Shown: piece after piece, positions 7,894 to 34,451 of the stretch
Numbering within the stretch: position 1 is the first letter of the stretch
Layout: every line of letters starts with the position of its first letter
Assembly: GCF_026151205.1 (NCBI RefSeq)
Contig: NC_087083.1
Span: 14,872,280-14,936,279, forward strand
DNA: 64,000 bases
From: Bolinopsis microptera
Lineage: Eukaryota > Ctenophora > Tentaculata > Lobata > Bolinopsidae
Reading direction: 5' to 3'
Notes under the pieces: model-generated
What the model was told of the DNA's origin: nothing
The model's database searches: none
Seen by the model: only the letters and a program-made list of their open reading frames with translations
Position numbers and translations under genes: made by a program

Positions 7894-7978
7894 CTTAGAG
7901 AAGCGATTAAGTATTCTGCCAGAAGGTGTGGTGTCAAAGAAGCTCATAGGTACTTTCAGTATTCTCTCGAACATAGAT
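7894..7978 (-). CDS. ABCC: ABCC exon: TMD2 coupling region
   Basis: Enters in phase 2 after TTTTCAG and encodes [19 protein letters not shown] then ILNRFSK, the hallmark ABCC TMD2 motif. Donor AAG|GTAGGG. This is the last ABCC exon seen; nothing downstream to base 1 on this strand encodes NBD2. Confidence 0.93.

Positions 7979-34451: not shown

Follow-up and report, generated by a model that had tools for sequence, protein, structure and literature searches.

The window analysed here, a stretch of 64,000 nucleotides from the ctenophore Bolinopsis microptera, carries an ABC transporter gene, an aspartyl-protease (BACE-like) gene and ERO1, together with tandem repeats (51 rows in the output of TRF) that make up 54% of its length. 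In repeat content it is an outlier, since repeats cover 0–27% of 11 arbitrary 4-kb stretches of the genome and 73% of one more. The window sits 266–330 kb from the end of a 15.2-Mb contig, in an assembly of 264.65 Mb and 232 contigs in which 13 chromosome-scale contigs hold about 258 Mb and the largest measures 26.2 Mb. The exons of the transporter gene were located by reading the sequence, and the arrays by TRF. Thirteen consecutive exons with GT/AG ends were traced on the minus strand from 33437 to 9586, and when spliced they gave a single open frame of 519 residues with Pfam matches to ABC_membrane (7.6e-19) and ABC_tran (1.2e-22). The gene is called ABCC after the label in the first-pass annotation, which agrees with MRP-type proteins, the subfamily assignment being putative. 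The family match of the BACE-like gene was no finer than aspartyl protease.

The first-pass annotation had claimed that most introns of ABCC own a tandem array, that many of these arrays start close to a splice site and that the introns of BACE and ERO1 behave alike, and all three statements were borne out. An array with a TRF score of at least 100 was found in 9 of the 12 introns between the traced exons, and the two flanking introns, inspected by eye, brought the number to 11 of 14 examined. In 4 of the 12 introns the array enters an exon, and further arrays lie 6, 9, 17 and 19 nt from donors and 3, 13 and 30 nt from acceptors (Table 1). Similarly, by eye, the BACE-like gene has a 41-bp array 6 nt from a splice site, and ERO1 has arrays of 21 and 26 bp at 7 and 4 nt, respectively. 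Other arrays, with units of 15, 30, 39, 46 and 18 bp, are remote from any junction, hundreds of bases into their introns.

Several other repeats were noted in the window. A 184-bp satellite fills its end in two blocks (50910–61299 and 62057–64000) of apparently opposite orientation. One 21-bp unit, present at 36751–36841 and 41663–42381, flanks a 4.8-kb stretch with long open frames, presumably LINE-like, which looks as if it had been inserted into an older 21-bp array. A 36/72-bp repeat at 46251–46809 lies within a long open frame (45958–47616, minus strand) and is possibly a coding minisatellite, and a long inverted repeat around AGATCGAACGC was seen by eye downstream of the ABCC exons (7580–7760).

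Table 1. Traced exons and tandem arrays of the window, with positions counted from its first nucleotide.
Feature	Position	Strand	Basis
ABCC exon 1 of the traced set	33270..33437	-	spliced frame, Pfam match
ABCC exon 3, first 23 nt within the 40-bp array	31981..32079	-	spliced frame, array distances
ABCC exon 7, first 36 nt within the 59-bp array	26887..27063	-	spliced frame, array distances
ABCC exon 11, last 9 nt within the 20-bp array	20980..21069	-	spliced frame, array distances
ABCC exon 13, first 18 nt within the 42-bp array	9586..9643	-	spliced frame, array distances
40-bp array; unit holds acceptor AG and 23 nt of exon 3; 10.8 copies	32057..32489	-	TRF, spliced frame
59-bp array; unit holds acceptor AG and 36 nt of exon 7; 59.5 copies; far end 18 nt from donor	27028..30535	-	TRF, spliced frame
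20-bp array; unit holds end of exon 11 and donor GTATGT; 212.7 copies; begins 9 nt inside exon	16733..20988	-	TRF, unit alignment
42-bp array; unit holds acceptor AG and 18 nt of exon 13; 139.6 copies	9626..15492	-	TRF, spliced frame
9-bp array, 13 nt upstream of exon 1 acceptor; far side of intron meets a 100-N gap	33451..34271	-	TRF, by eye
20-bp array, intron 1; 33 nt from donor, 50 from acceptor	33128..33239	-	TRF
36-bp array, donor +19	31779..31961	-	TRF
17-bp array, donor +6	30766..31258	-	TRF
13-bp array, 30 nt before acceptor	25847..25898	-	TRF
29-bp array, donor +9; 20.5 copies	24708..25304	-	TRF
14-bp array, 3 nt before acceptor	24156..24605	-	TRF
39-bp array, interior of intron 10; 7.1 copies	23432..23708	-	TRF
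15-bp array, interior of intron 10; 71.7 copies	21565..22607	-	TRF
21-bp array, donor +17	15920..16542	-	TRF
18-bp array, interior of intron after exon 13	8954..9247	-	TRF, by eye
41-bp array, 6 nt after donor of BACE-like gene	48741..49045	-	TRF, by eye
21-bp array, 7 nt before ERO1 acceptor	41663..42381	+	TRF, by eye
26-bp array, 4 nt after ERO1 donor	42532..42654	+	TRF, by eye

Junction-spanning arrays in two copies of ABCC

Four ABCC arrays, one at a donor and three at acceptors, have units that span the exon–intron boundary and reproduce the exon–intron DNA letter for letter. The splice dinucleotide was found to be intact in all aligned units of the 59-bp (55 of 55), 40-bp (10 of 10) and 20-bp (209 of 209) arrays and in 97.6% of 127 units of the 42-bp array, so that a single intron can carry more than 100 acceptors or 200 donors that are nearly identical.

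A second copy of ABCC, either a paralogue or a misplaced haplotype, was found on the same contig as the window (C12:14373900-14398899). Fourteen exons are 92–100% identical between the two copies, and the array-free sequence, exons included, is 2.9% diverged over 6420 aligned bases. All four spanning arrays are present in both, with 59.5 units in the window and 32.8 in the second copy for the 59-bp array, 10.8 and 14.8 for the 40-bp array, 139.6 and 79.7 for the 42-bp array and 212.7 and 59.0 for the 20-bp array. Most other arrays are also shared, with differing copy numbers; the 29-bp array has 20.5 units in the window and 171.8 in the second copy, where the 20-bp array of intron 1 has 3.6 units. 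The 21-bp array near a donor (15920..16542) was not seen in the second copy. Three further arrays are close to the single-unit state in one gene copy. The 39-bp array, with 7.1 units in the window, is represented in the second copy by one unit flanked by two CCCCTTA 7-mers; the 15-bp array has 71.7 units in the window and 2.6 in the second copy; and a 14-bp array of 14 units in the second copy corresponds to about two units in the window. Counting the 21-bp array, four arrays are near-single in one copy and numerous in the other, and three of the four are interior to their introns. Such pairs of states are compatible with duplication at short homology followed by expansion, and contraction could also have produced them. 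Between two of the arrays, at 15520–15880, lies an inverted-repeat (MITE-like) element, of which the second copy seems to have one arm only.

Placement of arrays in an independent intron sample

Introns from other genes were sampled through exon matches to the Pfam families myosin head, Cpn60/TCP1, dynein AAA_6, kinesin, adaptin, DHC_N2 and ABC_membrane; they were chosen blind to repeats and resolved with a frame-consistent GT/AG solver, giving 117 in total. Set A was taken from 17 stretches of myosin and CCT genes (52 of 60 introns usable, eight being dropped for a score below 7.5 or a residue deviation above 4.5). Set B consisted of 47 introns with 300–4500 bp between exon matches, from 119 pairs (46 usable, L033 dropped), and set C of 21 introns with 300–6500 bp between exon matches, from 56 pairs (19 usable, L091 and L094 dropped). 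Intronless matches, near-identical second gene copies and some stray matches were removed by hand before repeats were inspected. L041 and L056 were kept in set B though 12 residues off, the former with one weak repeat and the latter with none. Twelve exon-match pairs too distant in the profile were not attempted, and junction arrays seen by eye were thereby lost, namely those of L011, of L001, whose 48-bp array lies 2 nt from a donor, and of L006, with an 8-bp array 13 nt from an acceptor.

Spanning arrays were found in 8 of the 46 set-B introns, at the donor in L031, L048, L051, L061, L064 and L065 and at the acceptor in L067 and L071, and in none of the 52 set-A or 19 set-C introns (none of the 12 arrays of these two sets). 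L031 and L065 are junction-spanning duplications with just two copies. A further spanning array, at a myosin donor in the solver-skipped intron L011, has 22 copies of 26 exon and 14 intron bases. Units overlapping exon ends, whose count had been suggested in the first-pass annotation, are thus present in 8 of the 41 sampled arrays, in L011 and in four arrays of the window. The L067 intron also contains two separate blocks of one 21-bp unit, GTATGTTTTCAGGAGGTAACA, which resembles an acceptor, a 3-nt exon and a donor.

Placement was evaluated against a null in which all arrays of an intron were collapsed to one unit and that unit was dropped anywhere overlapping the present intron. For the 41 arrays with a score of at least 100 in the 117 introns, 17 were within 30 nt of a junction against 9.11 expected (P = 0.0007), a roughly twofold excess, and 13 within 10 nt against 6.42 (P = 0.0023), with P values that are optimistic because independence is violated by introns of the same gene and by the near-identical L088 and L089, and because the thresholds, varied over scores of 60, 100 and 200 and distances of −3 to 50, were not fixed beforehand. 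The excess of spanning arrays alone missed significance (8 against 4.61, P = 0.056). When the donor of L096 was moved 10 nt by eye, its array started 7 nt after the donor and the count within 10 nt became 14. The non-spanning arrays leaned to the intron ends, 9 of 33 being in the outer tenth against 3.3 expected. In the window, 4 of 15 arrays were spanning against 3.2 expected (P = 0.38) and 9 were within 30 nt against 6.6 (P = 0.086); for the 11 scoring at least 200, 9 were within 30 nt against 5.6 (P = 0.0075). The eight set-A arrays at a score of 100 included none that spanned a junction and one within 30 nt (0.7 expected), and at a score of 60, 5 of 16 were within 20 nt against 2.0 expected. 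The four arrays of set C included none that spanned, and 3 of 4 lay within 10 nt only after the by-eye shift of the L096 donor. A comparison of distances to splice sites, of the kind that the first-pass annotation had proposed genome-wide, gave enrichment outside the window as well. Its claim that arrays are not placed at random near junctions held against uniform placement in present introns, about twofold in the independent sample and more weakly in the window, and became unclear against shorter ancestral introns.

The set-A introns have a median length of 260 bp, and the 41 array-free ones among them 193 bp. A short-intron null, devised after the excess had been seen, was also used, in which the introns resembled the array-free ones and each received arrays according to its length. 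With the lengths of the 41 array-free set-A introns, it predicted that of 41 arrays 6.6 would be spanning, 8.8 within 10 nt and 12.3 within 30 nt. The corresponding values were 11.4, 15.5 and 21.8 with 33 array-free introns up to 600 bp, and 4.2, 5.6 and 7.7 with all 175 exon-match gaps, long ones included. The observed 8, 14 and 17 fall among the three predictions. As 12 to 22 of 41 arrays would be expected within 30 nt in short introns like the array-free ones, geometry can explain the excess. If an intron later gained large insertions at another place, its arrays would stay near the junction, and the excess is accordingly read as compatible with geometry, with a modest junction bias beyond it being possible. 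Arrays scoring at least 100 numbered 8 in 32 kb of the 52 set-A introns (0.25/kb) and 8 in 48 kb of 12 arbitrary 4-kb stretches (0.17/kb, in 5 of 12), the latter placed without regard to genes or intergenic DNA and the figures being compared raw.

The motif content of 162 array units was also determined. Among 1415 hexamers the most over-represented was GTAAGT (13 occurrences against 2.4 expected). Strong donor scores were shown by 62% of 13 spanning units (background 16%), 5% of 21 abutting units (6%), 6% of 54 interior units (8%) and 0% of 18 units from arbitrary stretches (10%), with a weak excess in 56 units without an assigned resolved intron (11%, background 4%). The GTAAGT signal was considered as general support for seeding at junctions and rejected, since when split by class it stems mainly from the spanning arrays. 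Two further observations concern shared motifs. In non-array DNA of the window and loci L001–L097, CACGTG occurs 112 times where a first-order expectation gives 29.5, a 3.8-fold excess, and it is enriched still more in array units (11 of 162 against 1.95 expected), and a TCACGTGA-like core is common to several unrelated arrays.

Origin of the arrays

We consider that the arrays are probably intronic minisatellites produced by local tandem duplication and expansion, and tolerated since one junction stays intact. This reading starts from what was observed directly: the anatomy of the arrays, their overlap with exons, the copy-number differences between gene copies and the near-single-unit states at the same place. 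A tandem duplication of about 10–65 bp would occur anywhere in an intron or across its edge, and the duplicated units would then be amplified and homogenised where they lie. That the change ran from one unit to many, that it was neutral and that slippage or unequal exchange drove the expansion are presumed. As the introns are short, a large share of such duplications would fall on or beside a splice site, and one that spans a junction would be tolerated because the intact exon retains one copy of the junction beside it. The surplus donors or acceptors would turn into intronic decoys, and the exon-proximal splice site alone would presumably be used. The similar array density in arbitrary stretches argues for local duplication, as do the two-copy duplications L031 and L065 and the null based on the lengths of array-free set-A introns, which predicts 6.6 spanning arrays and 12.3 within 30 nt where 8 and 17 were observed. 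Against it, uniform placement in present array-collapsed introns underpredicts near-junction arrays (9.1 against 17 and 6.4 against 13), the non-spanning arrays lean to the intron ends, and the null with 175 gaps gives just 7.7 within 30 nt. The twofold excess within 10–30 nt, obtained from introns picked blind to repeats, would be accounted for by a process targeted at junctions, in which duplications start more often at splice sites through a nick, stall, R-loop or microhomology at AG|GT, and GTAAGT as the top hexamer and the donor excess in unassigned units point the same way. Such a process, put forward as a hypothesis in the first-pass annotation, is nevertheless rather unlikely: the twofold enrichment, though it stands against the 175-gap null, shrinks to 17 against 12.3 with array-free set-A lengths and reverses against 21.8 with introns up to 600 bp; spanning arrays account for most of the hexamer excess; donors are affected as well as acceptors (six and two in the independent introns); the arrays that differ most between gene copies are interior in three of four cases; and arbitrary stretches are about as array-rich. 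A bolder statement, which we regard as doubtful, would be that ctenophore genomes combine duplication biased about twofold to exon–intron junctions with splicing that dependably passes over as many as 200 perfect tandem decoy donors or acceptors, so that coding exon ends could be rewritten by exchange with intronic copies.

The first-pass annotation had also named reverse transcription of splicing intermediates, in which introns or lariats would be copied and reinserted as arrays. Proximity to splice sites would agree with this, and acceptor-spanning units could in principle derive from a lariat joined to the 3′ exon. The donor-spanning arrays (the 20-bp array of the window, L011, L031, L048, L051, L061, L064 and L065) contradict it, since their units hold the 5′ exon joined to the intron and the template was thus neither an excised intron nor a step-one intermediate; unspliced pre-mRNA is a possible template for these. 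Interior arrays, which contain no junction, have the same appearance, and single local units occur in the second gene copy; an origin from splicing intermediates is hardly credible. Birth of the introns from coding tandem arrays, as in intron gain by tandem duplication, is suggested by the intron of the 59-bp array, which would shrink to about 41 bp with one unit left in place of the array, and has been proposed for amphioxus globins in the available part of PMC3087553. In 11 of the 12 spanning arrays of resolved introns, however, the two intron ends do not both lie inside the array, the opposite junction being 87–1794 nt beyond it (the 59-bp array, 18 nt from the donor, is the exception), and by eye the joined ABCC protein has no repeated segment, which makes this origin very unlikely. 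The repeated donors or acceptors could also be functional, for example in U1 recruitment or in buffering the loss of splice sites, and be kept by selection. In favour of such a role, seven array instances had the splice dinucleotides intact in every aligned unit (209, 57, 55, 30, 10, 14 and 79 units); against it, they were intact in 97.6% of 127, 95.5% of 22, 96% of 25 and 72% of 46 units in the other four (72% being the lowest value among that array's 32 positions), and the two gene copies have very different copy numbers. Homogenisation suffices, since conservation of whole units is almost as high as that of the splice dinucleotides, and a function of this kind is highly improbable. Conversely, column conservation in the 11 array instances hinted at selection against decoy splice sites in L064 only, where 10 of the 13 non-GT units share one variant.

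Relation to known systems

Structures of this kind are known from amphioxus as mirages, for which Canestro et al. in 2002 is reportedly the founding paper. A literature search of open-licence papers found no report of junction-spanning arrays in ctenophores. The available part of PMC3087553 describes mirages as minisatellite-like tandem duplications across intron–exon boundaries in globin (BflGb6/BflGb9) and Adh3 genes, with units of 150–160 bp and of 10–72 bp, at both boundaries, with apparently regular splicing and with length and somatic instability, and the accessible portion of PMC3902484 adds PGBD5 and troponin C. As far as those portions go, the arrays reported here resemble mirages in units that span the exon–intron boundary (four ABCC arrays, L011 and eight set-B arrays), in the involvement of both 5′ and 3′ boundaries (one donor and three acceptors in the window, six and two in the independent introns, and the donor of L011), in unstable copy number, here between two ABCC copies on one contig, and in an intact reading frame, judged for the 13 ABCC exons from sequence alone. 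They differ in being larger, with up to 213 copies and 5.9 kb, in occurring in several unrelated genes of one genome, known from the sequence of a single assembly, and in their host, a ctenophore, whereas the reported hosts are cephalochordate. No close Antennapedia homeodomain was found in the genome, the best matches being 47% over 51 and 55% over 38 residues. A link to the motifs of ctenophore chromatin loops was considered and rejected, as the part of PMC12221973 that was consulted describes a GC-rich motif and the text contains neither ‘tandem’ nor ‘minisatellite’.

Ordinary intronic minisatellites and VNTRs share with these arrays a private unit for each array, high internal identity and length change between copies; the difference is that 8 of the 41 arrays sampled here extend into coding DNA at the edge. 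Zhuo et al. in 2007 are said to have derived human introns from tandem arrays, and Rogers in 1989 and Gao and Lynch in 2009 reportedly treated intron gain by internal duplication. To judge from the partial accounts of those proposals at hand, the tandem repeats with splice signals inside genes are alike, but there the array is held to create the intron, whereas here the far-side sequence lies outside the array in 11 of 12 spanning cases. The spanning arrays bear on intron-gain models built on duplicated AG|GT, and they let minisatellite turnover reach coding sequence at exon ends. Introns that carry them are natural tests of splice-site choice, with dozens to hundreds of identical sites against one correct site. 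The findings suggest that amphioxus mirages extend to probably another phylum, in which they are apparently common (8 of 46 set-B introns, but none of the 52 in set A and none of the 19 in set C). A process acting at junctions is possible and not required; the structure itself is true and striking, known in kind, and found here in a new lineage and in quantity.
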